Shown: positions 1 to 14,275 of the stretch, in pieces
How positions within the stretch are numbered: the first letter of the stretch is position 1
Layout of the letters: every line of letters starts with the position of its first letter
Source: Jiangella sp. DSM 45060
GTDB lineage: Bacteria > Actinomycetota > Actinomycetes > Jiangellales > Jiangellaceae
Reading direction: 5' to 3'
Length of the DNA stretch: 64,000 nt
Assembly (NCBI RefSeq): GCF_900105175.1
Contig: NZ_LT629771.1
Coordinates: forward strand, 5,972,622 to 6,036,621
Program-made: the position numbers and the translations under genes
Notes under the pieces: model-generated
Told to the model about the DNA's origin: nothing
What the model saw: only the letters and a program-made list of their open reading frames with translations
Databases searched by the model: none

Positions 1-1
1 C

Positions 2-292
2 AACCGCGGACGGATCATGGACCGTGGGCTCTGGCGCTACACACGGCACCCCAACTACTTCGGCGACGCCTGCGTCTGGTGGGGCCTGTGGCTGTGCGCG
101 TGCGTCACCTGGCCGGGCGCGGCCACCGTCGCATCGCCGCTGCTCATGACGTTCTTCCTGGCCCGCGGGACGGGCAAGGCGCTGACCGAGAAGCGCATGT
201 CCGGGCGGCCCGGTTACGCCGAGTACGTCGAGCGGACCAGCGGCATCGTCCCGTTGCCGCCGCGTCAGAGGTCGACCAGCGGGTCCGGATAG
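2..292 (+). CDS. DUF1295-family membrane protein, C-terminal part (5' end outside window)
   Basis: The reading frame is open from the first complete codon of the window, so the gene starts upstream. The visible residues (NRGRIMDRGLWRYTRHPNYFGD) match the C-terminal signature of DUF1295 / steroid 5-alpha-reductase-like membrane proteins, in which RHPNYFG is the most conserved motif. A hydrophobic stretch follows (WWGLWLCACVTWPG, then SPLLMTFFLARG), and the end (EKRM..RPGYAEYVERTSGIVPLPP) is also typical. Family members are predicted reductases or methyltransferases of lipid-like substrates; the substrate is unknown. The last 28 bp overlap the 3' end of the convergent photolyase gene. Confidence 0.85.
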   Translation, partial: NRGRIMDRGLWRYTRHPNYFGDACVWWGLWLCACVTWPGAATVASPLLMTFFLARGTGKALTEKRMSGRPGYAEYVERTSGIVPLPPRQRSTSGSG

Positions 293-1605
293 TCCAGGCC
301 CCGGCGACGGTCGTCCGGCAGCGTCCACGGCGTGTGGACGGCGGCGCCCTCGACGTCGCGCAGCTCGGGCACGTAGCGGCGGACGTAGGCGCCGTCGGGG
401 TCGAAGCGCTTGGCCTGGCGCAGCGGGTTGAGGACGCGGTTGGGCCGCGTGTCGTTGCCGGTGCCGGCCACCCACTGCCAGTTGCCGGCGTTGTTCGCGA
501 CGTCGCCGTCGACCAGCCAGCGGAAGAAGTGGGCGGCGCCGGCCCGCCAGTCGACCCGCAGGTTCTTCGTCAGGAACGACGCCGTCACCAGCCGGGCCCG
601 GTTGTGCATCCAGCCCTCGCGCAGCAGCTGGCGCATGCCGGCGTCGACGATCGGCACGCCGGTACGGCCCTCCTGCCAGGCCCGCAGTGCGTCGGCGTCA
701 TCGCGCCATTCGACGTCACGGCGCCGGTAGTCCTTCGCGGCGACGGACGGGACCGCCGCCGTCACCTGGTGGTGGAAGTCGCGCCAGGCCAGCTGCCGGA
801 CCTGTTCCGGGGCACAGCCGGCCAGCCGGTTGGCCACCTCGAGCGGCGAGACGCAGCCGAAGTGCAGGTACGGGCTGAGCCGCGAGGTCCGGTCGCCGGC
901 GAGGTCGTCGAGGTCCGGCTCGCCGTCGCCGGCCCTTCGGACGGCCGCCTCGAGGACGGCGCGCCCGGCGGTCTCGCCACCGTCGGGAAGATCGGGCGAG
1001 GAGTCGCCGTCGGACAGGTCCGTGACGGCAGGCAGCCGGCCGATCCGGTCGAGGGCGCCGCCAGCTCCGGGGATCGTCGGCGGCGCCGCGTGCTGGTCGC
1101 GCCACTCGACCGCGTCCCAGGCCCGCCAGTACGGAGTGAAGACGCGGTAGTGGTCGCCGCCGGCCGGGGCCAGCGCGCCGGGCGGGACCACCGTCACGCC
1201 GGGATGGGCCCGGAACCGCACGCCCCGCCCCGCGCACCCGTCGGCCAGCCGCTGCTCGCGGCGCTGGGCGTAGCCACTGACGTCGGCGCTGCACACCAGC
1301 GCCGTCGCCCCTGTCTCCGCGACTACCGCCATCGTCTCCTCGACGACGTCGCCGCGGCGCAGCACCAGGTTGCCGCCGCGCTGCCGCAACTGTTCGCGCA
1401 GGTCGGCCAGCGCCCGGGCGAGGAACGCGGCCCGGTTGGGCGCGGCGTTCCGGCCGCCCAGGATCGCGTCGTCCAGCACGAACAGCGGCACCACCCGGTC
1501 GGCGTGCTCGCAGGCGGCGGCCAGCGCCGGGTGGTCGTGCACCCGCAGGTCGCGGGTGAACAGCACCACTGCCGTCTTCTCCATCGTCGGACTCATACCC
1601 GTCAT
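265..1605 (-). CDS. phrB: deoxyribodipyrimidine photo-lyase (class I cryptochrome/photolyase)
   Basis: Light-driven, FAD-dependent repair of cyclobutane pyrimidine dimers is the expected role. The N-terminal alpha/beta antenna domain begins VVLFTRDLRVHDHPAL. The C-terminal FAD domain carries the hallmark blocks RLSPYLHFG, WRDFHHQ, GVPIVDAGMRQL, GWMHNRARLVTASFLTKNL, GDVANNAGNWQWVAGTGND and FDPDGAYVRRYVPEL. An Asn in the VANNAGNWQW block, where cryptochromes usually have Asp, favours repair activity. At 446 aa it is normal family length. Met1, Met4 (1596) and Met8 (1584) are all possible starts; Met8 fits the family N-terminus best, but no Shine-Dalgarno site decides. It is divergent from the SDR gene, with a 41-bp gap. 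Confidence 0.95.
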   Translation of the reverse strand: MTGMSPTMEKTAVVLFTRDLRVHDHPALAAACEHADRVVPLFVLDDAILGGRNAAPNRAAFLARALADLREQLRQRGGNLVLRRGDVVEETMAVVAETGATALVCSADVSGYAQRREQRLADGCAGRGVRFRAHPGVTVVPPGALAPAGGDHYRVFTPYWRAWDAVEWRDQHAAPPTIPGAGGALDRIGRLPAVTDLSDGDSSPDLPDGGETAGRAVLEAAVRRAGDGEPDLDDLAGDRTSRLSPYLHFGCVSPLEVANRLAGCAPEQVRQLAWRDFHHQVTAAVPSVAAKDYRRRDVEWRDDADALRAWQEGRTGVPIVDAGMRQLLREGWMHNRARLVTASFLTKNLRVDWRAGAAHFFRWLVDGDVANNAGNWQWVAGTGNDTRPNRVLNPLRQAKRFDPDGAYVRRYVPELRDVEGAAVHTPWTLPDDRRRGLDYPDPLVDL

Positions 1606-1646
1606 TCGAGGCCCATCCGCTCCCGGATGGGGTACGAACCCCCGAC

Positions 1647-3104
1647 ATGAGGGTTCTCGTCGCCGGCGCGACCGGCTATGTCGGCAGCCGCCTGGTCCCG
1701 CGGCTGGTCGCCGCCGGACGCACCGTCCGCTGCCTGGCCCGCGATCCCGGCAAGCTGCGCGACCAGCCCTGGGCGAGCGAGGTCGAGGTCGTGCGCGGCG
1801 ACGTGCTGGATCGGGCCGGCCTCGCCCCTGCCATGGAGGACGTCGACGTCGTGCACTATCTCGTGCACTCGCTGGCGACGCGCGGCTTCGCCGAGACCGA
1901 CCGGAGGGCGGCGACGACAGTGGCGGCGGCGGCCGCGGACGCCGGTGTGGGCCGGCTCGTCTACTTGGGCGGGTTGCACCCGCCGGCCACCGCCGGGCTC
2001 TCCGACCACCTGGCGTCGCGCACCGAGGTCGGCCGGATCTTCCTCGACGGGCCGGTACCGGCGGTCGTGCTGCAGGCCGGCGTGGTCATCGGCTCCGGTT
2101 CGGCCAGCTTCGAGATGCTGCGCCACCTCACCGAGCGGCTGCCCGTCAGCGTGACGCCACGCTGGGTGCACACCCGCACCCAGCCCATCGCGATCCGCGA
2201 CGTCCTCGCCCACCTGGTCGCGGCCACCACCCTGCCGGGCGAGCCGAACCGGACCTTCGACATCGGCGGCCCGGACGTGCTGACGTACGCGGACATGATG
2301 CGCGGCTATGCCCGCGTCGCCGGGCTGCCCCGCCGGGTGATCGTGCCGGTCCCGCTGCTGACGCCGTGGCTGTCCGCGCAGTGGGTGAACCTGGTGACGC
2401 CGGTGCCGCGATCCATCGCGGTCCCGCTGATCGAATCGCTCGAGCACGAGGCCGTCTGCACCGAGGACGACCTGCGCGACCTGCTGCCGGAGCCGGTCGA
2501 CCCGACGCCGTATGAGCGTGCGGTCGAGCTGGCGCTGGCCCGCATGCGCGACGGCGAGGTCGAGAGCCACTGGTCCGCCGCGTCGCCCGCCGGTGCGCCG
2601 TCGGACTCGCTGCCCAGTGATCCGTCCTGGTCCGGCGGCTCGGTGCGGGTGGACCAGCGGTCCGTACGGTGCGCCGTCCCGCCCGAACGGCTGTGGCGCG
2701 TGGTCGAAGGCATCGGCGGTCAGAACGGCTGGTACTCGTTCCCGCTGGCCTGGGCGGTGCGCGGCTGGGCCGACCGGCTCGTCGGTGGCGTCGGCCTGCG
2801 CCGCGGCCGCCGCGACCCGGCCCGGCTGCACCTCGGTGAGGCGCTGGACTGGTGGCGGGTCGAGGCGATCGAACGTGGCCGGCTGCTGCGACTGCGCGCG
2901 GAGATGAAGGTGCCGGGGAGGGCCTGGCTCGAACTGACGGTGACGCCCGACGGCGACGGCGCCCGCTACGGCCAGCGCGCGGTCTTCGTGCCCCGCGGCC
3001 TGACCGGCCAGCTCTACTGGTGGATGTTGTGGCCCTTCCACGGGATCATCTTCGGCGGCATGTCCCGCAACATCACCCGCACGGCCGCTCGTCCGAGCGT
3101 CTGA
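1647..3104 (+). CDS. SDR family NAD(P)-binding protein with C-terminal DUF2867 domain
   Basis: An atypical short-chain dehydrogenase/NmrA-like Rossmann domain starts at the first residue (VLVAGATGYVGSRLVPRLV, a GxxGxxG dinucleotide site) and covers about the first 300 residues. HYLVHSL and the GLHPP region are typical of the actinobacterial SDR/DUF2867 fusion. The C-terminal part (about 335-480), with WRVVEGIGGQNGWYSFPLAW and LYWWMLWPFHGIIFGGM, is DUF2867, a START-like hydrophobic pocket domain. The substrate is unknown. The stop codon lies inside the left arm of the hairpin element at 3101-3195, so termination and element are physically linked. Confidence 0.9.
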   Translation: MRVLVAGATGYVGSRLVPRLVAAGRTVRCLARDPGKLRDQPWASEVEVVRGDVLDRAGLAPAMEDVDVVHYLVHSLATRGFAETDRRAATTVAAAAADAGVGRLVYLGGLHPPATAGLSDHLASRTEVGRIFLDGPVPAVVLQAGVVIGSGSASFEMLRHLTERLPVSVTPRWVHTRTQPIAIRDVLAHLVAATTLPGEPNRTFDIGGPDVLTYADMMRGYARVAGLPRRVIVPVPLLTPWLSAQWVNLVTPVPRSIAVPLIESLEHEAVCTEDDLRDLLPEPVDPTPYERAVELALARMRDGEVESHWSAASPAGAPSDSLPSDPSWSGGSVRVDQRSVRCAVPPERLWRVVEGIGGQNGWYSFPLAWAVRGWADRLVGGVGLRRGRRDPARLHLGEALDWWRVEAIERGRLLRLRAEMKVPGRAWLELTVTPDGDGARYGQRAVFVPRGLTGQLYWWMLWPFHGIIFGGMSRNITRTAARPSV

Positions 3105-3195
3105 GGGGCGGAGGATGCGGAGCCGGCGTCAAGAGCGCCCGCGGCATGCTTCACCGCCGCGAAGCGGAGCCGGCGCAGCATCCTCCGCCCCTCAG
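3101..3195. repeat. hairpin-nested 59-nt repeat element, copy 1 (probable bidirectional terminator)
   Basis: A perfect 18-bp inverted repeat (3101-3118 ctgaggggcggaggatgc, 3178-3195 its reverse complement) encloses a 59-nt core at 3119-3177. The core recurs at 5838-5896 with one substitution. It starts and nearly ends with the direct repeat ggagccggcg and contains the small inverted pair cgcggc/gccgcg. The left arm includes the stop codon of the SDR gene, and the right arm ends 8 bp before the MMPL stop codon. The element therefore fills the convergent junction and probably ends transcription from both sides. There is no T-tract. Confidence 0.8.
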
Positions 3196-3202
3196 GCGCG
3201 GG

Positions 3203-5236
3203 CTAGCGATCCGTGCGCTTCGGCCACCAGACGCGTGGGCCGAGGTCGTAGGCGAGGGCGGGCACGAGCAGCGAGCGGACGACGAAGGTGTCGAGCAGCA
3301 CGCCGAACGCGACGAGGAAGGCGATCTGCGCCAGGAACAGGATCGGGATCACCGCGAGCGCCGAGAACGTGGCCGCGAGCACCAGCCCCGCCGACGTGAT
3401 GACGCCGCCGGTGACGGCGAGCCCGCGCAGCACGCCGGGCCGCGTGCCGATGCTCGCCGACTCCTCCCGCACCCGGCTCATCAGGAAGATGTTGTAGTCG
3501 ATGCCGAGCGCCACGAGGAACACGAACGCGAACAGCGGCACGCCGGGGTCGGCGCCGGGCCAGCCGAGGACGTGGTCGAAGACCAGCCCGGCCACGCCCA
3601 GCGTCGCGGCGAAGCTCAGCACGACGGTGAGCACCAGCAGCACGGGCGCCAGGACGGAGCGCAGCAGCCCGATCAGCACGAGCAGGATCACCGCCAGCAC
3701 CACCGGGATGATCAGGGTGCGGTCGCGGGCGGAGATCTCGTTGGTGTCCAGCAGTTCGGCAGTCCGGCCGCCCACCAGCACGTCCTCGCCGACGTCGTCG
3801 AGGGCGGCCCGCAACTCGCGGACGGTGCCGACGGCGGCGTCGCTGTCGGCGGGGTCGGCGAGGGTCAGCTCGAGCAGCGCACGGTCACCGGCGATCTGCG
3901 GCTCCGGCGCGTTCGCCGCCGGGCTCACGCCGTCGACGCCCGTGGCCGCCTGAGCCACCCGGTCCGCGTCGCCGGACGAGCTCAGGACGAGCACCGGCGA
4001 GCCGGAGCCGCCGGGGAAGTGCCGGCTCAACGCCTCCTGACCCTCGACCGCCTCGACCCGATCGAGGAACAGCTCGCTCTCGCTGACGCCGTCGGCGCGG
4101 AAGGTGGGCACGAGCGCGGTCAGCGCCAGCAGCACCGCGCCAACCCCGGCCCACAGTGCGCGGGGGCGCCGGCCGACCAGCCGGGCGACGCGGTCCCACA
4201 CGCCGGCGCGCTCCGGCGCCTCCGAGCCGTACCGCGGCCGGAACGGCCAGAACGCCGCCCGCCCGAGCAGCACCAGGACGGCCGGCAGGAAGGTCAGCGC
4301 CGCCAGCAGCGAGGCGCCGATGCCGAGGGCGGCCACCGGGCCCAGGCTGCGGTTGGAGTTCAGGTTCGACAGCAGCAGGCAGAGCACACCGGCGATGACG
4401 GTGCCGCCGGAGGCTACGATCGGCCCGGCCGCCCGCCGCAGCGCCGTCGCCATCGCCTCGAACCGGCCGCGGTGCTCGCGCAGCTCCTCGCGGTAGCGGG
4501 CGACCAGGAGCAGCGCGTAGTCCGTCGCGGCGCCGACGACGAGGATCGACATGATGCCCTGGCTCTGCCCGTTCAACGTCAGCGTGCCGGCGTCGGCCAG
4601 CAGGTACACCGCCCACGACGCCAGGCCGAGCCCGAGCACCGACGACACCAGCACGGCGAGCGGCAGGATCGGGCTGCGGTAGACCACCAGCAGGATCACC
4701 AGCACCACGGCCAGCGCCACCACCAGCAGCACGCCGTCGATGCCCGCGAACGCCGATCCCAGGTCGGCGGCGAACCCGGCCGGGCCGGTCACGTGCACGG
4801 CGGCGCCCGCCGCCTCGCCCAGGGTGGCCCGGATCTCCTCGACGACGGCGTCGACCTCGGCCGCGCCGGAAGTGTCGATCTGGACGACGGCGGTGAGCGC
4901 GTTACCGTCCTCGGACGGGATCGGCGGGCTGACCGGCGGGGTGACGCCGTCGAGCCCGGCCACCCGCTCGAGCTGGGCCGCGGCCTCGCCGGCCGCCTCG
5001 GGCGCCAGCCCGTCCGGGGCCTCCCAGACCACGACCGCCGGCAGGACGTCGGCGTCCTGGAAGTCCGCCCGCGCGTCGGCGACCTCGGTGGACTCGGCGT
5101 CGGAGGGCAGGAACGCGGCGTTGTCGTTCTCGGCGACCTCGCCGAGCCGGCCCGCGTACGGGCCGCCGACAGCGCCGACCGCCAGCCACCCGAGCAGGAG
5201 GAGGACGGGGACGAGCCAGCGCAGCCGAGAGGGCAT
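3203..5236 (-). CDS. MMPL/RND family membrane transporter
   Basis: A 677-aa inner-membrane exporter of the actinobacterial MMPL type. It has an N-terminal TM segment (LRWLVPVLLLLGWLAVGAVGG), an extracytoplasmic loop, a six-helix block with MSILVVGAATDYALLLVARYREELR, a second loop, and a second block with FVFLVALGIDYNIFLMSRVREE. The two GxxxDY motifs are the proton-relay signature of the family. Members export lipids, siderophores or drugs; the substrate here is unknown. It lies 47 bp downstream of a MarR regulator on the same strand, and the palindrome at 5263-5285 in that gap suggests MarR control, as in many drug or fatty-acid efflux pairs. Confidence 0.93.
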   Translation of the reverse strand: MPSRLRWLVPVLLLLGWLAVGAVGGPYAGRLGEVAENDNAAFLPSDAESTEVADARADFQDADVLPAVVVWEAPDGLAPEAAGEAAAQLERVAGLDGVTPPVSPPIPSEDGNALTAVVQIDTSGAAEVDAVVEEIRATLGEAAGAAVHVTGPAGFAADLGSAFAGIDGVLLVVALAVVLVILLVVYRSPILPLAVLVSSVLGLGLASWAVYLLADAGTLTLNGQSQGIMSILVVGAATDYALLLVARYREELREHRGRFEAMATALRRAAGPIVASGGTVIAGVLCLLLSNLNSNRSLGPVAALGIGASLLAALTFLPAVLVLLGRAAFWPFRPRYGSEAPERAGVWDRVARLVGRRPRALWAGVGAVLLALTALVPTFRADGVSESELFLDRVEAVEGQEALSRHFPGGSGSPVLVLSSSGDADRVAQAATGVDGVSPAANAPEPQIAGDRALLELTLADPADSDAAVGTVRELRAALDDVGEDVLVGGRTAELLDTNEISARDRTLIIPVVLAVILLVLIGLLRSVLAPVLLVLTVVLSFAATLGVAGLVFDHVLGWPGADPGVPLFAFVFLVALGIDYNIFLMSRVREESASIGTRPGVLRGLAVTGGVITSAGLVLAATFSALAVIPILFLAQIAFLVAFGVLLDTFVVRSLLVPALAYDLGPRVWWPKRTDR

Positions 5237-5251
5237 GCTCGGGCCTTTCGT

Positions 5252-5285
5252 TTCGATGGTCGAATATCTCGATCGTCGAGATATT
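5252..5285. promoter_or_regulatory. probable MarR operator upstream of the MMPL transporter
   Basis: A perfect inverted repeat, AATATCTCGA-TCG-TCGAGATATT (5263-5285), overlaps the marR stop codon and is directly preceded by a second one, TTCGA-TGG-TCGAA (5252-5264). Both lie 16-50 bp upstream of the MMPL start codon. The AT-rich sequence stands out in this genome and has the size expected of a MarR dimer site. Binding is inferred from position and symmetry. Confidence 0.7.
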
Positions 5286-5784
5286 ACCCGCGCCCGGCCC
5301 CGTCACGCTCCCGGTGGGCGACGAGCGCCTCGAGCGCCGTCGTCAGGAACCGCTGCACGACGTCGAGGTCGTGCTCGTCGTACCCGGCGAGCCGGTCCGC
5401 CATGTCGACCGCCAGCGGGCCGAAGTAGGCCGGGCCGAGCGCGGCGGCCGACGGCTCCAGCCGGACCAGCACCCGGCGGCGGTCGCGCGGATCGGTCTCG
5501 CGGCGCAGGTGGCCCGACGCGACCAGCCGGTCGACGAGCGCCGTCACCGATGCCGACGAGAGTCCCAGTTCGCGCCCGATCGCGCCGGCCGTGACGTCGC
5601 GGCCCTCGCGCGCGGCTGCCACCAGGACGAGCAGCGCGCGGGCGGCGGAGTGGTCGATGTCGTGGGCCGCACCGAAGCGGCGGGCGAGGTCGGCCATCTC
5701 GGCGCCGAGCAACTGGAGCTGCCTGATGACGGCGTCGGTGCGCGCGTCCCTCGGCCCCGCCTCGCCGGGCGTCTCCGTCGCCAT
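5284..5784 (-). CDS. MarR family transcriptional regulator
   Basis: A 166-aa winged-helix repressor. The helix-turn-helix lies at about residues 60-105 (TAGAIGRELGLSSASVTALVDRLVASGHLRRETDPRDRRRVLVRLEP), including the DPRDRR wing that is nearly invariant in MarR proteins. Flanking helices would form the dimer and ligand pocket. It is encoded just upstream of, and on the same strand as, the MMPL exporter and probably represses it. The palindrome overlapping its stop codon is the best operator candidate. No similar palindrome is evident before its own start. Confidence 0.9.
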   Translation of the reverse strand: MATETPGEAGPRDARTDAVIRQLQLLGAEMADLARRFGAAHDIDHSAARALLVLVAAAREGRDVTAGAIGRELGLSSASVTALVDRLVASGHLRRETDPRDRRRVLVRLEPSAAALGPAYFGPLAVDMADRLAGYDEHDLDVVQRFLTTALEALVAHRERDGAGRG

Positions 5785-5817
5785 GGGGTCATGGTCGCAG
5801 ACACCCGCGCCCGCGGG

Positions 5818-5916
5818 CCGGAGGGATCGGTGGATGTGGAGCCGGCGTCAAGAGCGCCCGCGGCATGCTTCACCGCCGCGTAGCGGAGCCGGCGCAACAT
5901 CCACCGATCCCTCCGG
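5818..5916. repeat. hairpin-nested 59-nt repeat element, copy 2
   Basis: A perfect 20-bp inverted repeat (left arm 5818-5837, right arm 5897-5916; arm ccggagggatcggtggatgt) encloses a 59-nt core (5838-5896) that matches 3119-3177 at 58 of 59 positions, in the same orientation. The stem sequence is unrelated in detail to that of copy 1 yet equally perfectly paired. The element lies 11 bp downstream of the fasciclin gene stop codon and upstream of marR, which is a terminator position. Confidence 0.8.
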
Positions 5917-5927
5917 GTCGCCCTTTC

Positions 5928-6611
5928 TCACATCGGCGGCATCAGCACGCCGTCGATGAGGTAGACGGTCGCATTGGCCGTGGTGACACCGCCGCAGATG
6001 ACGTTGGCGTCGTTGACGGTCATCGCGTCCGGCGTGCCGGCGACGGTCACGGGCGCGCCCTGGACCGTCGTCTGCTCGCCGACCACCTGGTCGGGCGACA
6101 GCTGGCCGGGCACCACGTGGTACGTCAGCACCGTCGTCAGCAGGTCGGCGTCGGTCGACAGCGTCGTCAGCGTGGCCGGGTCGACCGCTGCGAACGCGTC
6201 GTCCACGGGCGCGAAGACGGTGAACTCGCCGCCGTTCAGCGTGTCGACGAGGTTGACCTGCGGGTTCAGCTCGCCGGACACGGCCGAGACGAGCGTCGTC
6301 AGGATCGGGTTGTTCGACGCGGCCACCGCGACCGGGTCGTCGGACATGCCCTCCACCGACCCCTCGCCGTCGGGCACCTGGGACGCGTAGTCGGCGCAGC
6401 CCGGGCCGACCGGGCCGGCCATCGGTTCCTCCGTCATCTCGTCGGCCGGCTCGCCGGCGTCCTCGCTCGGCGCCGCGGAGCTGTCGCCGCTGCCGCCGTT
6501 GCCGCTCGCCGTCGAGTCGTCGTCGCCGTCGTCGCCGCAGGCGGACAACGTCAGTGTGAGAGCGGCGGCGGTCGCCAGCAGGACGGGGACTCGCCTGGTC
6601 AGGAGCTTCAT
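5928..6611 (-). CDS. fasciclin (FAS1) domain lipoprotein
   Basis: The 227-aa protein has a lipoprotein signal peptide ([16 protein letters not shown], lipobox LSAC), a low-complexity acidic linker (about 25-70), and one FAS1 domain (about 85-227). The domain shows [27 protein letters not shown] and [10 protein letters not shown], the H1 and YH motifs of the family, and ends [14 protein letters not shown]1 lipoproteins act outside the cytoplasmic membrane in adhesion or protein interaction. The start has GAGGAA at good spacing. It follows the molybdopterin oxidoreductase gene by 51 bp on the same strand. Pairing of FAS1 proteins with sulfite-oxidase-fold enzymes recurs in actinobacteria and suggests a joint extracytoplasmic role. 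Confidence 0.93.
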
Positions 6612-6662
6612 GATCGGTTCCTCTCGTGCTCGTTCTGATGGGTGTCGGGTCGTGTCGGGGAG

Positions 6663-8303
6663 TCAGGTCACGCGCACCACCACCGAATGCCAGCCGCTGG
6701 ACCCGTCCGGGAACGGCGGTGCCTGCTCGTCGGTCTGCCGGTCGCCGGCGCCGTCGGTAGCGCGGACGCGCAGCGTGTGGTTGCCCGGTTCGGCGTCCCA
6801 GTCCCACGACCACTGCCGCCAGGTGTCCGCCGACGCCTCGGCGGCCAGCCGCGCGGGCCGCCAGTCGCCGTCGTCCACCTGCACCTCGACCCCGGCGACG
6901 CCGCGGTGCTGCGCCCACGCCACCCCGGCGACGACGGTCCGGCCGGCAGGCAGCTCGGCGAACGACCCCGGCACGTCGATGCGCGACGCCGTCTTGATCG
7001 GGGCCTCGGCCGCCCAGCCGCGGTCGGTCCAGTAGGCGGTGGCGCGGTCGAAGCGGGTCAACTCCAGGTCCGTGACCCACTTCGTCGCCGACACGTAGCC
7101 GTACAGGCCGGGGACGACGAGGCGGGCGGGGAAGCCGTGCGCCACCGGCAGCGGCTCACCGTTCATGCCGATCGCCAGCAGCGCGTCCCGCCCGTCCGTG
7201 ACGACGTCCAGCGGCGTGCCCGCCGTGAACCCGTCGACGCTGGTCGAGAGCAGCATGTCGGCGTCGGCGCTCGGGTTCGCCCGGGCCAGCAGGCCGGCCA
7301 GCGGGTAGCCGAGCCAGACGGCGTTTCCGGCCAGCTCGCCGCCGACCTCGTTGGAGACGCAGGTGAGCGTGATCATGCGCTCCACCAGGTCCAGCCCGAG
7401 CACGTCGTCGAAGTCGAGCTCGATCTCCCGCTCCACCATCCCGTGGATCCGCAGCCGCCACTCCTCCGGCGTCACGCGCGGCAGGTCGAGCGCGGTGTCG
7501 ACGCGGTAGAAGTCCGGGTTCGGTGTGGTGAACGGCGACACCCCCGCGACGTCCAGTTCGGCGCCGGCCGGGACCGCGGGCGCCGGATCGCTCGGCGGCG
7601 GGAGCCGCAGCGCATCGCGTGCCGCCCGCACGTCGGCCAGCGTCTGCCCGAACCGCCGCCCGCCGACCGCCGACAGCACCGCCAGGCCCGCCACCGCCGC
7701 CGTCAGCACGACGACCTCCCGCCGCGACGGCCGCTTTGCCTCCGCCCTGCCGACACCCGCCCTGCCGACGCCCGCCCCCTCGGGGTCGGCGTCGGTGTCG
7801 GTGCCGGTGGGGTCGTCGCCTCGGCCTGCAGTCACCCTGGTCCCGGGCGCGCCGGAAACGGCGCGGAGCCGCCCCACCAGCACCGTCAGCGCCACTACGC
7901 CCGCGACGACCCCGGCGAGGGTCGGCACCGCCCAGGCCGCGGTGGCCGTCGGACGGTTCAGGGCCGCGGCGACCGCCACGGCGCCCAGCACCAGCAGCAC
8001 CGCCGCGCCGGCCCACCGCCGCCACAGCTCGAGCAGTCCGCCCGCCGCCGACACCAGCAGCAGCACGCCGGCCATCCCGGCCAGCAGCACCTGCTTGTCG
8101 TTCTCGCCGAACGTGCGGATGGCGAAGCTCTTCAGCCACTCCGGCGTCAGGTCCACGAACGTGTTGCCGACCGCCAGGAACGGCGCCGCGGCCGGCTCCG
8201 CCACGAGCGCCGCGACCAGTTCGCCGACGCCCAGGGTGAGCCCGCCGGCCGCGATTCCGGCCAGCGCGGCCAGTGCTCGAGTCCCCCACCGGTGCGTCGT
8301 CAT
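6663..8303 (-). CDS. membrane-anchored molybdopterin-dependent oxidoreductase (sulfite oxidase fold)
   Basis: The N-terminal third holds several TM helices (RALAALAGIAAGGLTLGVGELVAAL, VLLAGMAGVLLLVSAAGG, GAAVLLVLGAVAVAAAL, TLAGVVAGVVALTVLVG, then VVVLTAAVAGLAVL). The rest is a sulfite-oxidase-like Mo-cofactor domain. ITLTCVSNEVGG carries the cysteine that ligates molybdenum, followed by WLGYPLAGLL and GFPARLVVPGLYGYVSAKW-type motifs and a C-terminal Ig-like dimerisation domain. The start at 8303 (MTTHRWGTR) is chosen because the upstream extension is Arg-rich and unlike the family. The catalytic domain should face outside. The substrate is unknown; partners may include the adjacent FAS1 lipoprotein. 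Confidence 0.9.
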   Translation of the reverse strand: MTTHRWGTRALAALAGIAAGGLTLGVGELVAALVAEPAAAPFLAVGNTFVDLTPEWLKSFAIRTFGENDKQVLLAGMAGVLLLVSAAGGLLELWRRWAGAAVLLVLGAVAVAAALNRPTATAAWAVPTLAGVVAGVVALTVLVGRLRAVSGAPGTRVTAGRGDDPTGTDTDADPEGAGVGRAGVGRAEAKRPSRREVVVLTAAVAGLAVLSAVGGRRFGQTLADVRAARDALRLPPPSDPAPAVPAGAELDVAGVSPFTTPNPDFYRVDTALDLPRVTPEEWRLRIHGMVEREIELDFDDVLGLDLVERMITLTCVSNEVGGELAGNAVWLGYPLAGLLARANPSADADMLLSTSVDGFTAGTPLDVVTDGRDALLAIGMNGEPLPVAHGFPARLVVPGLYGYVSATKWVTDLELTRFDRATAYWTDRGWAAEAPIKTASRIDVPGSFAELPAGRTVVAGVAWAQHRGVAGVEVQVDDGDWRPARLAAEASADTWRQWSWDWDAEPGNHTLRVRATDGAGDRQTDEQAPPFPDGSSGWHSVVVRVT

Positions 8304-8368
8304 GCCCCGTGTTCGACGCGACTCCGGGCCCGGATTGGTCGCGTCCCGGGAATCAGCCGTTCGGCCGG

Positions 8369-8406
8369 TTGTCCACAGGCTCGGCCGGACTCGCCGGTTG
8401 TCCACA
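8369..8406 (+). promoter_or_regulatory. pair of DnaA-box sequences
   Basis: TTGTCCACA occurs at 8369-8377 and again at 8398-8406, in the same orientation and 29 bp apart, each within a longer direct repeat (c)cggttgtccaca. TTGTCCACA is the preferred DnaA box of Streptomyces and related actinomycetes. The pair lies between the divergent oxidoreductase (start 8303) and uma2 (start 8502) genes. DnaA binding is inferred. Confidence 0.6.
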
Positions 8407-8501
8407 TTTCCCGATCTGCCGATGGATCACGGCCCACCGACCAGCAAGAGTGGCGGCATGCCGAACAGCAGTGCGAAACTCACGAGAACAGGAGAAGCCA
8501 G

Positions 8502-9083
8502 ATGGTGGTGGTCGACATGGCGGCGGTCGAGTTCCCGGCGAGCCGACAACGCTGGGCGTTCGAGGACCTCCTCGAGTTGCCCGAATCCGACTGGCGCTTC
8601 GAGATCGTCGACGGTGGGCTGCACATGACCCCGCCGCCGAGCCTCTATCACGACGGCATCTGGTTGCGGCTGCGCGACCTCATCCGCGATGCCGTCCCAG
8701 CGGCCTACGTGGTGCACGGGCCGACGGCGATCGACCTCGATCCCAGTTACCTCATCCCCGACCTCACGGTGCTTCGACGCGACACGGTCCGGCGCGGCCG
8801 CAACCTGATCCGTCCGTCCGAGGCGCTCCTCGTGGTCGAGGTGGTCTCTCCGGGGTCGAAGTCCGCCGACCGCATCCTGAAGCCGGCCACCTACGCGGCC
8901 GCGGGCATCCCACATTTCTGGCGGGCGGAGTTCCAGCCGGAGCTCAGCCTCACCGCCTACGCGCTGCCCGACGGCGCCCGCACGTACACCGAGGTGGGCA
9001 CCTGGACGGCCGGCCAGACGGCACCCATCCGGGCGCCGTTCGAGGTCGACATCGAGATCGCGGAGCTGGCTCCGGACCGTTGA
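8502..9083 (+). CDS. Uma2 family protein (DUF820, PD-(D/E)XK nuclease fold)
   Basis: A 193-aa protein beginning MVVVDMAAVEF after the ribosome site AGGAGA. Features of the Uma2/DUF820 family are WAFEDLLELPESDWRFEIVDGGLHMTPPPS near the start, the core YLIPDLTVLRR (the PD of the PD-(D/E)XK site) and ALLVVEVVSPGSKSADRILKPATYAAAGIPHFWRA (the E-x-V-S/x-D-x-x-x-K element). Residues D, E and K of the fold are all visible. The family is abundant in actinomycetes and cyanobacteria, often in multicopy, and its biological role is unsettled. Two DnaA boxes lie about 100 bp upstream. Confidence 0.9.
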   Translation: MVVVDMAAVEFPASRQRWAFEDLLELPESDWRFEIVDGGLHMTPPPSLYHDGIWLRLRDLIRDAVPAAYVVHGPTAIDLDPSYLIPDLTVLRRDTVRRGRNLIRPSEALLVVEVVSPGSKSADRILKPATYAAAGIPHFWRAEFQPELSLTAYALPDGARTYTEVGTWTAGQTAPIRAPFEVDIEIAELAPDR

Positions 9084-9166
9084 TCCGCCCGACCGGCCAG
9101 GCGTAGGCTTTTCGCCGACCCCCAGTCGGGGTGATCACAATCCGACCGCTGCTTCGGGAGCTCCCT

Positions 9167-12100
9167 GTGCCCAGCCGCACCGCGTCCGCGCGTCCCTCAG
9201 CCCAGACCGCCAAGCCGTCAACGCCGTCGCTGGCCGTCGCGTCAGCCGAACCCTCACAGCCGCCCGGCACGTTCCGCCGGCTCGCTCCGTACCTCCTCCG
9301 CCACCGCGGCACCCTGGCCATCTCCGTCGTCGTGGCCCTGGCCTGGGCCGTCGCCGTCGCCGCCGTTCCGGTCACGCAGGGCCGGGTCGTCGACGACGCG
9401 ATCACCGACCGCAGTGCGCCGCTGCTGCCGATGATCCTGCTGCTCATCGGCCTGGCGGTAGCCCGCTTCGTCCTCTCCGGCTGGTGGCGCTACGTCGGTG
9501 GCACCACCGCGTTCCGCATCCAGGACGACCTGCGCCGCGACGTGTACGACACGTTGCAGCGCCTCGACTTCACCGGCCACGCGCAGTTGCAGAGCGGCCA
9601 GCTGGTGTCGCGCATCAGCGGCGACCTTCGCTACGTGCACATGCTGCTCAGCTGGATCCCGCAGGTGGCGGCGACATTGCTGTCGTCGCTGCTGGCGGTC
9701 GTCGTCATGTTCATGCTGTCGCCGCTCATCGCGGCGCTGGTGGTGGCCGTCATCGTGGTGGTGTTCGCGGTGACGAACCGGCAGCGCCGCCAGGTGTACG
9801 CGGCCGGGTGGGACGCCCAGGACCGGGAGGCGGAGATGACCTCCCGGGTCGAGGAGGCCGTCACCGGCGTCCGCGTCGTCCGCGCGTTCGGCCAGCAGCC
9901 GGCCGAGACCGAGCGGCTGCACGGTGCGCTGCTCGACATGTTCCGGGCCCGGGTCCGGGCGGTCCGGTTGCGCGCCCCGTTCATCGCCTCGCTGCAGGGC
10001 GCGCCGCTGTTCGGGCAGGTCCTGGTGCTGCTGGCCGGCGGTCTGCTGGTCATCCAGGGCCAGCTCACCCTCGGCGTCTTCCTGGCCTGCACCGGCTACC
10101 TGGCCGAACTCATCGGCGCCGCCCGGGTGGCCGGCATGGTGCTGACGAACGCGCCGCTGTGCAAGGCGTCCACCGAGCGGGTCGGCGAACTGCTCGACCT
10201 GCGGGCCGAGATCACCGAACCGCTGCGCCCGGCCGCCGCCGACGAGCAGGGCGGCGCGGTCTCCTTCCACCGTGTCCGGTTCGCCTACGCCGACGGCGAC
10301 GGCCACCAGGTGCTGCGCCACTTCAGCCTCGAGGTGCGGCCGGGCGAGACGGTCGCGCTGGTCGGGCCGTCCGGCTGCGGGAAGTCGACGGCGCTGTCGC
10401 TGCTCCCCCGCTTCTTCGACGCCGACGCCGGCACCGTTACCGTCGACGGCATCGACGTGCGGCGGTGGTCGCTGCCGGAGCTGCGCCGCCGCATCGGGGT
10501 GGTGTTCGAGAACAGCTTCCTGTTCTCCGACACCATCGCCGCCAACATCGCCTACGGGAAACCCGAGGCCGGCATGGACGAGATCCGCGCGGCCGCCCGC
10601 GCGGCGCTGGCCGACGAGTTCGTCGAGGCGCTGCCCGACGGCTACGACACCGTGGTCGGCGAGCAGGGCATCACGTTGTCCGGCGGGCAGCGGCAGCGGG
10701 TCGCGCTGGCCCGGGCGCTGCTGGCCGAACCCGACATCCTGCTGCTCGACGACGCCACCTCGTCGGTCGACGTGAAGGTCGAGGAGCGCATCCACGCCAA
10801 CCTCGAACCGTTCCTCGCCAGCCGGACCGTCCTGCTGGTCGCCTACCGCGAGTCCACGCTGCGGCTGGCCGACCGCGTCGTCCTGGTCGACGACGGCCGG
10901 GTGGTCGACGAGGGCGGGCACGCCGAACTGCTGGAACGCAACACGCTGTACCGCGACCTGTTCGGCGACGGCCCCGGCAGCGACGAGCGCGCCGACGATC
11001 TGATGTCGCACGCCCGGGCCGGACGGTTCGAGGCCACGGCGTCGGCGTGGGAGTCGCGGCAGGACGCCACCGGCTCGCTGCCCAGCCTGCACATGACGGT
11101 GCCGCCGGCGGTCGCCGAACGCATCGCCGCGCTGCCACCGCCCGCCGACCCGCCCGGCGTCGACCTCGGCCGCGAGAACTCCGCGCGCGGTCCGTTGCGG
11201 CTGGCGTCGTTCCTGCGCCCGTACGTCGGCGGCCTGCTGGTCGGCCTCGCGCTGGTCGTCCTCGAAGCGGCGATCACGCTGGTCAACCCGATGCTGGTGC
11301 AGCGTGCGGTCGACGACGGCATGCGCGCCGGCGCCACGGACGTGCTGTTGTGGGTGTGCCTCGGAGCGGCGGTGCTGGTCGGGCTGCTGTGGCTGGACCA
11401 ACGCACCGGGTTCCTGTGGACGACGCGCAGTACCGAGCGGCTGCTGCTGGCGATGCGGGTGCGCATCTTCGGGCAGCTGCAACGGCTGGGCATCGACTAC
11501 TACGACCGCACCCAGGCCGGCCGCGTCATGACCCGCATGACGTCCGACGTCGACGCGATCGCCCAGTTGTTCCAGGTCGGGTTGATCAACGCCGTCGTCA
11601 GCATCGCCACGTTCGCCGGCATGACGGTCGTGGTCATCGCGCTCGACCCGATGCTGGCGCTGGTCGTGCTGGGCGTCGTGCCGTTCGCCGCCGCCGTCAC
11701 GTGGTGGTACCGGCGGCGCGCCTCGGTCGCCTACGACGACGCCCGCGAGCTGCTGTCGACGATCAACGCCGACGTGCAGGAGAGCATGGCCGGCATCCGG
11801 GTGACGCACGCGTTCCGGCGCGAGGCCGTCAACCTCGAGCGGTTCGCCGGGCTCGGCCGCCAGTACGTCGACGCCAGCCTGCGCGGGCTCTACGCCACCG
11901 CGGTGTACGTCGCCGCCATCGAACTGCTCTCGGTGCTGGCCATCGCGGCCGTGCTCTGGGTGGGCGCGCAGCGCATCGAGGCCGGCACGCTGGCGCTCGG
12001 CACGCTGATCGCGTTCCTGCTGTACCTCGCCCAGGTGTTCGCGCCGATCCAGCAGCTGTCCTCGGTGTTCGACGTGTACCAGCGGGCCCGCACGGGGCTG

Positions 12101-12883
12101 GTCCGGGTGCGTGCGCTGCTGGCGCTGGACACGTCGACGCCGGTCCGGCCCGACGCCGTCCCCGTCGACTCGATCGCCGGTGACCTCCGGTTCGAGCAGG
12201 TCCGGCTGCGCTACGCCAGCGCCGCCACCGACGCCGTCCGCGACGTCGACCTGCACGTGCCGGCCGGCCAGCGGGTCGCGTTCGTCGGGCGCACCGGCGC
12301 CGGCAAGTCGACACTGTCGAAGCTGGTCGCCCGGTTCTACGACCCCACCGACGGCCGCGTGCTGGTCGACGGCCGACCGCTCGACGACCTGGACGTCACC
12401 AGCTACCGGCGGCACCTGGGGTACGTGCCGCAGGAACCGTTCCTGTTCTCGCGGACCATCCGCGACAACATCGCCTACGCGCGGCCGGACGCCAGCGACG
12501 CCGAGGTCGAGGCGGCCGCCCGCGCCGTCGGGGCGCACGAGTTCATCACCCGGCTGCCGGGCGGTTACCACCACGTGGTGGCCGAACGCGGCCGGTCGCT
12601 GTCGGCCGGCCAGCGGCAGTTGGTGTGCCTGGCCCGGGCGCTGCTCGGCGACCCGTCCATCCTCATCCTCGACGAGGCGACGTCGAACCTCGACCTCGCC
12701 AGCGAACGGAAGGTGAACCAGGCCATGCGCGTGGCGTCGGCCGGCCGCACCACCATCGTCGTCACGCACCGGCCGCAGTCGCTGCACTGGGTCGACCGCG
12801 TGGTGGAAGTGGCGGACGGGCGCATCGCCACCGACGAGCCGGCGCCGAGGTATGTGGAGCGGGTGTTGAGCCGGGCGGGTTGA
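9167..12883 (+). CDS. fused heterodimeric-type ABC exporter (TMD-NBD-TMD-NBD)
   Basis: A 1238-aa protein in which two ABC-B exporter halves are joined in one chain. Half 1 has its TMD at about 40-330 and NBD with Walker A GPSGCGKS (residue 400) and LSGGQRQR. Half 2 has its TMD at about 675-960 and NBD with GRTGAGKST, LSAGQRQL, LILDEATSNLD and VVTHRP. NBD1 is degenerate: Glu448 replaces the Q-loop Gln, Asp529 the catalytic Glu (LLLDDATS), and Tyr560 the switch His (LVAYRES). NBD2 is canonical at these positions. Such asymmetry is known in heterodimeric multidrug exporters with one dead ATP site. The GTG start at 9167 is preferred over 9131 because GGGAG lies 6 bp ahead. Confidence 0.93.
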   Translation: MPSRTASARPSAQTAKPSTPSLAVASAEPSQPPGTFRRLAPYLLRHRGTLAISVVVALAWAVAVAAVPVTQGRVVDDAITDRSAPLLPMILLLIGLAVARFVLSGWWRYVGGTTAFRIQDDLRRDVYDTLQRLDFTGHAQLQSGQLVSRISGDLRYVHMLLSWIPQVAATLLSSLLAVVVMFMLSPLIAALVVAVIVVVFAVTNRQRRQVYAAGWDAQDREAEMTSRVEEAVTGVRVVRAFGQQPAETERLHGALLDMFRARVRAVRLRAPFIASLQGAPLFGQVLVLLAGGLLVIQGQLTLGVFLACTGYLAELIGAARVAGMVLTNAPLCKASTERVGELLDLRAEITEPLRPAAADEQGGAVSFHRVRFAYADGDGHQVLRHFSLEVRPGETVALVGPSGCGKSTALSLLPRFFDADAGTVTVDGIDVRRWSLPELRRRIGVVFENSFLFSDTIAANIAYGKPEAGMDEIRAAARAALADEFVEALPDGYDTVVGEQGITLSGGQRQRVALARALLAEPDILLLDDATSSVDVKVEERIHANLEPFLASRTVLLVAYRESTLRLADRVVLVDDGRVVDEGGHAELLERNTLYRDLFGDGPGSDERADDLMSHARAGRFEATASAWESRQDATGSLPSLHMTVPPAVAERIAALPPPADPPGVDLGRENSARGPLRLASFLRPYVGGLLVGLALVVLEAAITLVNPMLVQRAVDDGMRAGATDVLLWVCLGAAVLVGLLWLDQRTGFLWTTRSTERLLLAMRVRIFGQLQRLGIDYYDRTQAGRVMTRMTSDVDAIAQLFQVGLINAVVSIATFAGMTVVVIALDPMLALVVLGVVPFAAAVTWWYRRRASVAYDDARELLSTINADVQESMAGIRVTHAFRREAVNLERFAGLGRQYVDASLRGLYATAVYVAAIELLSVLAIAAVLWVGAQRIEAGTLALGTLIAFLLYLAQVFAPIQQLSSVFDVYQRARTGLVRVRALLALDTSTPVRPDAVPVDSIAGDLRFEQVRLRYASAATDAVRDVDLHVPAGQRVAFVGRTGAGKSTLSKLVARFYDPTDGRVLVDGRPLDDLDVTSYRRHLGYVPQEPFLFSRTIRDNIAYARPDASDAEVEAAARAVGAHEFITRLPGGYHHVVAERGRSLSAGQRQLVCLARALLGDPSILILDEATSNLDLASERKVNQAMRVASAGRTTIVVTHRPQSLHWVDRVVEVADGRIATDEPAPRYVERVLSRAG

Positions 12884-12949
12884 CGACGGCGCGGGGTCGG
12901 CTCCTCGGGGTCGGAGGGGGCGGATCTGGGCGTGCTTCTAGGGGTATCA

Positions 12950-12983
12950 CCCGGCCGGCCGGGGGTCGCCCGGCCGGCCGGGG
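12950..12983. terminator. GC-palindrome pair, probable bidirectional terminator
   Basis: The self-complementary 15-mer cccggccggccgggg occurs at 12950-12964 and 12969-12983, separated by four bases, between the convergent ABC exporter and Tat-protein genes. Each copy can fold alone, or the two can pair as a long stem. There is no T-run, as usual for actinomycete terminators. Confidence 0.6.
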
Positions 12984-12988
12984 AGTCC

Positions 12989-14275
12989 TCAGCGCGCCAT
13001 GTTCGCCATGTTGGTGCCGCTGATGATCGCGTGCCGCAGCGACCGGCCCGGGTCGCCGGCGCCGCCGGGTGCGGAGTCGTCCTCGTAGTTGGGGTTGTGG
13101 TAGCCGCGCGGGCGGTGCCGCCGGAAGATCGCGTCGTAGTCGATGTCGCTGCGGGGGTCGCCGAACGGGATCATCCGGTAGCCCTCGCCGACGCCGACGG
13201 GCTGGTCGTCGCGGCGGTCGCCGTCCTTGGCGTGGTACAGGGGGTAGCGCAGCGGCTGGGCGGCGATCTGGTCGATCGGGCTGAAGATGCTCTCGCGGCG
13301 CTGGCCGTCCCAGTCGTAGTACCAGCGGAACCGGTGCTGCGCCGAGTGCGCCCAGTAGATGTCGATCTCGCAGTAGCACTTCGTGCTGGGCGTGATGTCC
13401 AAGTAGTACTGCATCTTGCGGATGCCGGACTCGCCACGCACCATCTGCGGCTGCGGCAGCGGATTGCCGGTGACGCGGTCGACCGTGACCTCGACCATCG
13501 GACCGTCCTGCAGGAAGCCGTAGGCGTCGGCGTGGTTGTGCGGGTAGATCGAGATCCGCCATTCGCGGCCGAGGTCGTTCAGCGCCTCCCACTTCTGGCC
13601 GGCGACGTCCCAGGCCTCCTTGGCCGAGCTGCCGGTCGGGTCACCGCCGGTGCCCATGTACGGCATGCCGACGATCGAGGCGAACTCCAGCTCGATCTGG
13701 AACCGGTCGTAGTCGTCGGCGGTCATGCCGCCGTTCGGCCCGCCCGGCCAGCTGTTGGGGATGAAGCCGTGGTTGCCGATGGCCTCCAGCCCGGCCTCGT
13801 CGAGGAAGCCGCGCAGCGTCCGCGCGTAGTCGAGGTAGGCGGGGAAGTTCTCCCGCAGCAGCCGGCCGCCCGACGAGAGCGGCGGGACGGTGCCGCCCTG
13901 GTTCTCGGCGTGCTGGCCGTATCCGGCGAACTCGACCTGCTTGAAGCCGGCGTTCGCCAGGAACTGGAACACCTCGCGGAAGCCGCCGGGCAGCGGCACC
14001 AGCTCGCCGAGGTCGTCGGGGTCGGCGGGGAAGTTCGGGCCGCCGAGGTAGCCCATGGTCGGGGCCGGGTTGTTCCAGATGCCGCGCCGCGCGGTCGCGT
14101 CGCGCTGGGTGTACAGGATCGTGCCGCGCTTGCCCGGGGGCAGCAGGGGGTTGGGCACGTTGCTCACCAGCGGGCCGGCCAGCGCCGGCGTGGCCGGCAC
14201 GATGGCTGCTGCCGCGAGCGTGCCGGCGCTGATCGTCAGCAGCCGGCGCCGGCTCAATCTGTGTTCCTGAGCCAT
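12989..14275 (-). CDS. Tat-exported sugar phosphate isomerase/epimerase-like TIM-barrel protein
   Basis: A 428-aa protein with a twin-arginine signal at the N-terminus (LSRRRLLTISAGTLAAAAIVPATPALA, cleavage after ALA). The mature part resembles xylose-isomerase-like TIM barrels: FQFLANAGFKQVEFAGYG, LEAIGNHGFIP, ISIYPHNHADAYGF and YYLDITPSTKCYCEIDIYWAHSAQ. The ordered H/E/D residues fit a divalent metal site. Family members isomerise or epimerise sugars and sugar-like compounds; the actual substrate is unknown. The C-terminus adds a tail rich in R, D and N. A CGAAACTTTCG palindrome, a LacI-type sugar-regulator motif, lies 74 bp upstream. Tat export implies folding with its metal before secretion. 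Confidence 0.85.
   Translation of the reverse strand: MAQEHRLSRRRLLTISAGTLAAAAIVPATPALAGPLVSNVPNPLLPPGKRGTILYTQRDATARRGIWNNPAPTMGYLGGPNFPADPDDLGELVPLPGGFREVFQFLANAGFKQVEFAGYGQHAENQGGTVPPLSSGGRLLRENFPAYLDYARTLRGFLDEAGLEAIGNHGFIPNSWPGGPNGGMTADDYDRFQIELEFASIVGMPYMGTGGDPTGSSAKEAWDVAGQKWEALNDLGREWRISIYPHNHADAYGFLQDGPMVEVTVDRVTGNPLPQPQMVRGESGIRKMQYYLDITPSTKCYCEIDIYWAHSAQHRFRWYYDWDGQRRESIFSPIDQIAAQPLRYPLYHAKDGDRRDDQPVGVGEGYRMIPFGDPRSDIDYDAIFRRHRPRGYHNPNYEDDSAPGGAGDPGRSLRHAIISGTNMANMAR

Follow-up and report, generated by a model that had tools for sequence, protein, structure and literature searches.

The window analysed here is a stretch of 64,000 nucleotides from Jiangella sp. DSM 45060 (contig NZ_LT629771.1, positions 5,972,622 to 6,036,621), and it contains two whole copies of a hairpin element of about 100 letters with a near-identical tip and a stem of about 20 letters that is free in sequence if both its sides pair. 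Copy 1 (3101-3195) lies between a convergent pair of genes, one with NAD-binding and DUF2867 domains and one of the MMPL family, and copy 2 (5818-5916) has the 3' end of a fasciclin-domain gene on one side and the start of a MarR-family gene on the other. The features are as follows.

1647..3104, + strand: gene, NAD-binding / NmrA-like and DUF2867 (Pfam), ending inside the left arm of copy 1
3101..3118, + strand: copy 1, left arm (5' side of the outer stem P1), perfect reverse complement of 3178-3195
3119..3177, + strand: copy 1, 59-nt type I core (fold and covariation)
3122..3127 and 3140..3145, + strand: copy 1, 5' half of the core, with GGA, P2 (GCCGGC, 3122-3127) and P3 (CGCGGC, 3140-3145) (fold and covariation)
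3146..3155, 3156..3161 and 3169..3174, + strand: copy 1, apical loop, P3 (GCCGCG) and P2 (GCCGGC) of the core, respectively (fold and covariation)
3178..3195, + strand: copy 1, right arm (3' side of P1), by complementarity to the left arm
3203..5236, - strand: MMPL-family gene, convergent, to the right of copy 1 (Pfam)
5284..5784, - strand: MarR-family gene, with its start on the other side of copy 2 (Pfam)
5818..5837, + strand: copy 2, left arm of 20 bp with a sequence of its own, by complementarity to the right arm
5838..5896, + strand: copy 2, 59-nt type I core, with left P3 at 5859-5864 and apical loop at 5865-5874
5897..5916, + strand: copy 2, right arm, by complementarity to the left arm
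5928..6611, - strand: fasciclin-domain gene, 3' end toward copy 2 (Pfam)

The original prediction had described a repeated core within a hairpin specific to the first locus, and much of that description holds: 3119-3177 and 5838-5896 differ by one mismatch in 59 positions, the arms of copy 1 (3101-3118 and 3178-3195) pair perfectly over 18 bp, and the TGA stop codon (3102-3104) of the gene at 1647-3104 falls within the left arm. What it overlooked is that copy 2 has perfect 20-bp arms of its own (5818-5837/5897-5916). The arms do differ between the two copies, as the term locus-specific implied, but they follow a loose Jiangella consensus, approximately GGAGGGGGCGGWGGRTGC, and are part of the element. 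With at most three mismatches allowed, a 28-nt stretch of the core is found twice in the window, against a mean of 0.00 in 100 shuffles. Folding z-scores were -8.5 (+ strand) and -8.3 (- strand) for copy 1 and -7.4 (+) and -7.9 (-) for copy 2, with no shuffle equally stable in either case.

Distribution

An absence of further copies, or copies with identical flanks, had been named in advance as outcomes that would speak against the prediction; neither occurred, and many copies with differing flanks were found. On the contig of the window itself (7.49 Mb), 10 core matches represent nine distinct type I copies, as the two ends of the contig share 13.3 kb. These ends (1-13,244 and 7,472,688-7,485,957, holding L152 and L151) are 99.6% identical over the overlap, which is probably an uncircularised assembly end at which the end copies were counted twice. 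The type I core was present in eight of the 40 genomes searched, the own genome included, and all eight are Jiangella (8 of 12 Jiangella genomes). We gathered 51 distinct type I contexts, or 50 once the two contig-end copies were joined; L008, which is the same copy as L010, was left out of the counts. An exact 22-base piece of the core, sought among named genomes, was found in Jiangella only, at seven loci (three in J. ureilytica, two in J. endophytica and one each in J. muralis and J. anatolica).

A covariance model built from these copies (R1) matched 13 of the 22 genomes of the order, comprising eight Jiangella and five genomes from three other genera, and detected no copy in four of the 12 Jiangella genomes. 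Of 39 further matches to the model, from other genera as well as Jiangella, 29 are within three changes of GCATGCTTCACCG at the tip and 18 carry the exact tip ATGCTTCACC, while the other 10 have type III interiors or are short forms or odd members. In these wider members the arms, P2 and P3 differ in sequence yet still pair. Jiangella also has variants of the element: short forms made up of the arms and GGAGCCGGCGCA, type II cores, in which P3 is longer, and type III cores, whose interior is different. A second model (R2) matched 14 of the 393 genomes of the class, 13 of them in this family and one outside (G158, with three weaker hits), under the stricter filters of large searches, by which weak relatives may be missed. 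Two of the three hits in G158 were folded and gave similar rods with GCGTCTARAGAGG in common and a different tip, and in the family of that genome 1 of 43 genomes was matched.

Viral contigs gave no exact match to two apical patterns, and phages and plasmids gave no BLAST match of copy 1. Among 12 loci tested against Rfam nothing reached the gathering score; with an E-value threshold there were three sub-threshold matches, one of which lay over the copy 1 hairpin (mir-Ro6-3, E 0.28). A search of the open-licence literature found no report of this Jiangella hairpin repeat.

Folded structure and covariation

Most copies fold as a rod in which the outer stem is near-free in sequence, the inner part covaries and the apical loop is conserved, the interior order being GGA, P2 (GCCGGC), a purine-rich internal loop, P3 and the apical loop ATGCTTCACC. 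Mean pairwise identity among the 50 type I copies is 96.8% in the core and 65.3% in the arms. Counted outward from the core, the stem measures 18-23 bp in 39 of the 50 copies, 25 bp in one and less in the remaining 10 (6 to 15 bp, and 0 in L066, which has a core indel). Stem figures for the remaining members, those outside type I and the short forms, are offsets from the model ends, and since the model sets its own ends these offsets are not independent evidence for a 20-bp stem. In both of our alignments, A1 and A2 (neither includes short forms, and A2 is also without type III), it is at the foot of P1 that the sequence varies, and the arms in G021 have no common consensus by eye. Judged by its ends the element is not a MITE of a DDE transposon, as at the arm and core identities given above the copies share no conserved terminal inverted repeats.

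Despite their freedom in sequence, the arms are matched to each other at each locus. In 58 aligned copies, 1013 of 1157 arm cells (87.6%) are Watson-Crick within their own locus, against 63.3% matching when left and right arms are taken from different loci. Both-sided changes occur at 19 of the 20 arm pairs of the outer stem, where 90.5% of cells pair. When the whole structure is counted, the paired fraction is 93.7% of cells against 80.8% in shuffled data, and 0 of 500 shuffles reached the observed value. Both-sided changes affect 213 cells, where shuffles give 53, and no slide of the partner comes near. The covariation therefore goes beyond that of shuffles, and it extends across genera, where 28 of 31 predicted pairs in 36 diverse members carry both-sided (compensated) sequence changes. 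A conserved structure had been one of the two guesses originally made about the repeat, and the fold and covariation support it.

Gene context and folding strand

Gene context was assigned with a simple gene caller of our own, which makes some errors, such as right-hand frames overlapping an arm. By these calls, 26 of the 50 type I copies are convergent, 19 are tandem in the same direction as the upstream gene, four are tandem opposite and none is divergent; one copy, which had no usable gene call, is unclassified. The 49 classified copies thus share the extragenic location after genes that is seen in REPs. The orientation bias among the tandem copies, 19 to 4, has p = 0.003, and with shared sites collapsed it becomes 10 to 2 (p = 0.04). 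At 34 other loci the context was convergent in 14, tandem opposite in 11, tandem same in four, divergent in one and unclassified in four. By type, two type II copies are convergent, one is tandem opposite and one divergent; two type III copies are convergent, one is tandem opposite and one unclassified; and five short forms are convergent and three tandem same. We tried and rejected the idea that the type I bias reflects an RNA folding in the upstream transcript: the other members lean the opposite way (4 same, 11 opposite).

Stem mismatches on the core strand comprise 40 G.T against 12 A.C, a difference with p of about 0.0001 if cells are assumed to be independent, which they are not. The excess is also present (12 G.T against 3 A.C) in the tandem-opposite group of other members, in which the neighbour is transcribed from the other strand, and for this reason we take it as a weak hint that the core strand folds as such, perhaps as a single-stranded intermediate or an independent RNA, and not within the transcript of the neighbour. 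Type I tandem-same copies have no G.T excess (4 to 5).

The main rival to a mobile element is a host-selected structure at gene 3' ends, which could be a bidirectional terminator, an RNA 3'-end stabiliser or a protein-binding RNA, with a core that purifying selection or gene conversion would keep alike. Position after stop codons with none of the 50 type I copies divergent, the G.T excess in the stems and the predicted folding energies (-58.5 to -85.8 kcal/mol in 37 of 38 folded members) are all consistent with a useful element of this kind. On balance we consider it rather unlikely, in view of the varying orientation to the neighbouring gene (type I 19 same to 4 opposite, other loci 4 to 11), the four of 12 Jiangella genomes in which R1 detected no copy, and a terminator scan (loops of 3-8 only) that called neither copy in the window; no T run follows either stem, this being a test of T-run terminators only. 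Observations at orthologous sites bear on the same question from both sides and are given in the following section.

Orthologous sites

A search for orthologous junctions with 13 gene-side pieces yielded 60 stretches, and 42 of these, in six site groups, were compared. At site L071, G011 has a few bases between the stop codons and other relatives have up to some tens of bases; three relatives carry small hairpins that are unrelated in sequence, and the arms found in G009 occur in none of them. At site L046, G001 and G011 have CACTGAGCTAGG, which leaves no space between the stop codons for the arms or for a hairpin, a point that argues against selection for a host function. Because the relatives at both sites are without arms as well as core, the two came, or went, together there, although absence of a copy in a relative may represent loss rather than gain. 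The idea of a bare 59-nt core dropped into a pre-existing local hairpin is therefore wrong for L071 and L046. Inspection by eye revealed no target-site duplication at either of these two sites, whose junctions are variable enough to hide one.

At a third site, L068, the short form is present in the other orientation in two relatives, and a separate GC-rich hairpin stands upstream of the element in all nine genomes compared; an element placed downstream of another hairpin likewise weighs against a host-selected 3' end. The two sites of the window also differ among relatives. At site 1, type I is forward in G000 and G008 and reversed in G001, and G004 has the short form reversed, while G003 and G011 are without the element and G002 is readable on the MMPL side only. 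At site 2, G000 carries the element, and G004, G002, G008 and G010 have an unrelated short hairpin after the fasciclin gene, as judged by eye.

The full comparison set comprised 66 elements (50 type I, eight short, four type II and four type III) in 40 site groups. Fifteen of the 40 groups are common to more than one genome, and among these 15 the core type differs in eight and the orientation in five. Identity in 19 overlapping ortholog comparisons was 89.4% in the flanks, 75.4% in the arms and 95.9% in the cores. The 380 arm pairs of these comparisons, which are not independent of one another, divide into 249 unchanged, 49 in which both sides have changed with Watson-Crick pairing kept, 75 with a change on one side and seven with other changes. 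In 18 of the 19 ortholog pairs, both-sided change was found in 50 of 360 arm pairs against 20.9 expected, and the compensated changes do not cluster in blocks (nine were adjacent where 8.6 would be expected, p = 0.50). The excess of both-sided changes and the retention of the same site in several species are in line with a host 3'-end element, and the pairing kept at orthologous sites could, against the mobile reading, reflect selection for a host function.

The same data invite a further explanation, in which template switching by the DNA polymerase re-matches arms and inverts spacers in place, so that old hairpins flip their cores without any mobility. Arm homogenisation and spacer inversion of inverted repeats by this process are described in the available text of PMC8604942, and hairpin maintenance by it in that of PMC8794818; the flipped cores at five of 15 shared sites and the 49 both-sided Watson-Crick changes agree with such a process. 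We nevertheless regard it as improbable, given that the compensated changes are unclustered and that it leaves the near-identical core at unrelated sites, the differences in core type and the presence or absence of whole elements unexplained. Template switching may, however, add to turnover, arm matching and flipping.

Other repeats were observed at some of these places. An inverted-repeat element of a few hundred bp with the ends AATGATCACGTTCA...TGAACGTGATCATT was seen at L226, L228, L244, L246, L254 and L275 in Jiangella genomes G008, G002 and G011 (L275 was assigned to it by motif alone). It occupies junctions L005, L045, L071 and L081, where another species has the hairpin element, and such junctions look like common landing places. 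In G005 (L236), CCTTGGCACGCC repeats lie at a junction that holds the element in G010.

Nested copies and remnants

Remnants of older cores were sought by aligning the full core to the flanks of the 66 elements (score of at least 28), as a position test that had no shuffled control. Eight remnants on the left side (L004, L007, L010, L048, L052, L083, L086 and L142) run from core position 1-3 to 20-31, and four on the right side (L007, L009, L056 and L134) run from 36-40 to 56-59; in this numbering P3 occupies 22-27 and 38-43 and the apical loop 28-37. Eleven distinct elements of the 66 thus bear remnants with an end at the apical loop or next to it, from which the loops of kin copies look like a target, and in this respect the guess of loop targeting finds support. 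The gap between remnant and stem is 58 nt in L004 and L134 and 3-14 nt in the others. Two further alignments do not fit the nesting model, in that the left flanks of L053 and L140 match the right half of the core. Two flank alignments of L049 are its two neighbouring copies.

The most complete case is L007/L056, one ancestral site in two species, where an inner element is enclosed by both halves of an outer core. In the outer loop TTCA has given way to the inner element, and pairing of the outer arms survives at 17 and 19 of their 20 positions. This is the only site at which both outer-core halves are preserved. No autonomous split-core copy was found with a left-half pattern of at most one mismatch, which gave three extra halves, each about 105 bp or less from a complete element and belonging to L052, to L083 and to one beside L004. 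Scoring the flanks for half-cores with wrong-side controls was rejected as a test: on the left side the wrong half was found in 12 of 66 elements and the expected half also in 12 of 66, the scoring not being clean because both halves share GGAGCCGGCG.

Several arrangements were noted alongside. The upstream flank of L052 (G008) holds a row of successive left half-cores, each after an arm-like stretch, before one complete element, and at L198 and L203 (G021 and G016) the element stands as a tandem pair, with about 10 bp between the copies. Genomes G001 and G011 share a left extension of approximately GGGCTGACCAGGTGG, which varies, just before or into the stem; it accompanies both type I (L045, L048, L055, L059, L083, L085 and L086) and type III (L139-L142) cores.

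Origin and spread

That classical REP or REPIN repeats are being moved here by a RAYT (Y1 tyrosine) transposase is very improbable and already contradicted in this genus. As with REPs in the available text of PMC3733652, the palindromes are extragenic and follow genes, with the flanking ORFs tandem or convergent. Y1_Tnp, however, was found in 0 of 12 Jiangella genomes, against 5 of 14 genomes for the control; the hairpin varies at its foot, where no GTAG or CGTC tag is conserved; and conservation is apical, the reverse of REPINs.

The explanation we prefer, to which we give an even chance, is that each feature in the window is a copy of a family of non-autonomous mobile hairpins of about 100 bp in the Jiangella family, with the core and arms together as the unit and with re-invasion of loops. 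The folded form would be what is recognised, that is, a near-invariant core, including its conserved apical loop and its internal loops, carried by a stem that is mostly 18-23 bp long and would be free in sequence as long as its sides pair. New copies would land chiefly at gene 3' ends and would also enter, repeatedly, the apical loop of a resident copy, after which the outer part of the invaded copy would decay. In this way an old site would keep an element even as its arms, core type and orientation were replaced. Such a mobile folded element with loop re-invasion accounts for free stems of similar length, near-identical cores and presence or absence of whole units, and equally for persistent sites with swapped or flipped content and for remnants ending near the loop. 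From these patterns we infer that the copying process is transposition, that recognition is probably single-stranded and that the sharing of sites comes from re-invasion and not from in-place change. Several results count against mobility: neither a Y1_Tnp gene in the 12 Jiangella genomes nor an autonomous copy with the left-half pattern was found, no target-site duplication was seen at L071 and L046, a clear remnant is present in no more than 11 of 66 elements, and the G.T excess is missing from type I tandem-same copies. More tentatively, the elements may form a new class, in which an apical fold on a free stem of near-fixed length is read single-stranded, homes into the loops of its kin, overwrites the content of sites and is served by an enzyme other than Y1/RAYT.

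Comparison with known systems

The occupied, empty, flipped and swapped orthologous sites make up a natural set for studying how hairpins move, and this set opens the question of whether arms are kept matched through selection, re-insertion or template switching. The last of these (PMC8604942 and PMC8794818, available text) likewise predicts re-matched arms and inverted spacers; it is, however, a mutation mechanism and not a repeat family, and it spreads no core.

Among repeat families, the repetitive hairpin-forming and double-hairpin elements of mitochondria are also intergenic hairpins that are presumed to be mobile, as described in the available text of PMC2800124, but those of sponges have conserved stems and variable loops and are organellar, and the Jiangella element is the reverse. 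REPs elsewhere prefer gene 3' ends too, and the CGTC-tagged REPs in the same available text of PMC3733652 are similar in being short palindromes downstream of genes with no dedicated transposase known. Their stems, however, are 8-9 bp with a CGTC end tag, and the five phyla listed there do not include Actinobacteria. The Jiangella element, in contrast, is about 100 bp long and has no terminal tag, the CGTC in its core being internal and not at an end. The small dispersed repeats (SDR) of cyanobacteria are very small, much shorter than the Jiangella element, and are said to occupy structured contexts. They are also named in the available text of PMC3116915.

With the REPINs described in that text, the Jiangella elements have in common that they are miniature, non-autonomous extragenic hairpins in which one part is conserved and the other is limited in length and pairing and undergoes compensatory changes. 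In REPINs the ends are conserved and the interior is free, whereas in Jiangella the apex is conserved and the base is free, and REPINs go with RAYTs, which in the form of Y1_Tnp were not found in the 12 Jiangella genomes. Long near-perfect hairpins with a nearly unconstrained stem and a tip that hardly changes are in this sense a mirror image of the REPIN, and no Y1/RAYT was found in the genus that carries them. By analogy, the Jiangella element works like an inside-out REPIN, yet one with neither the RAYT association nor the tagged ends of its counterpart.
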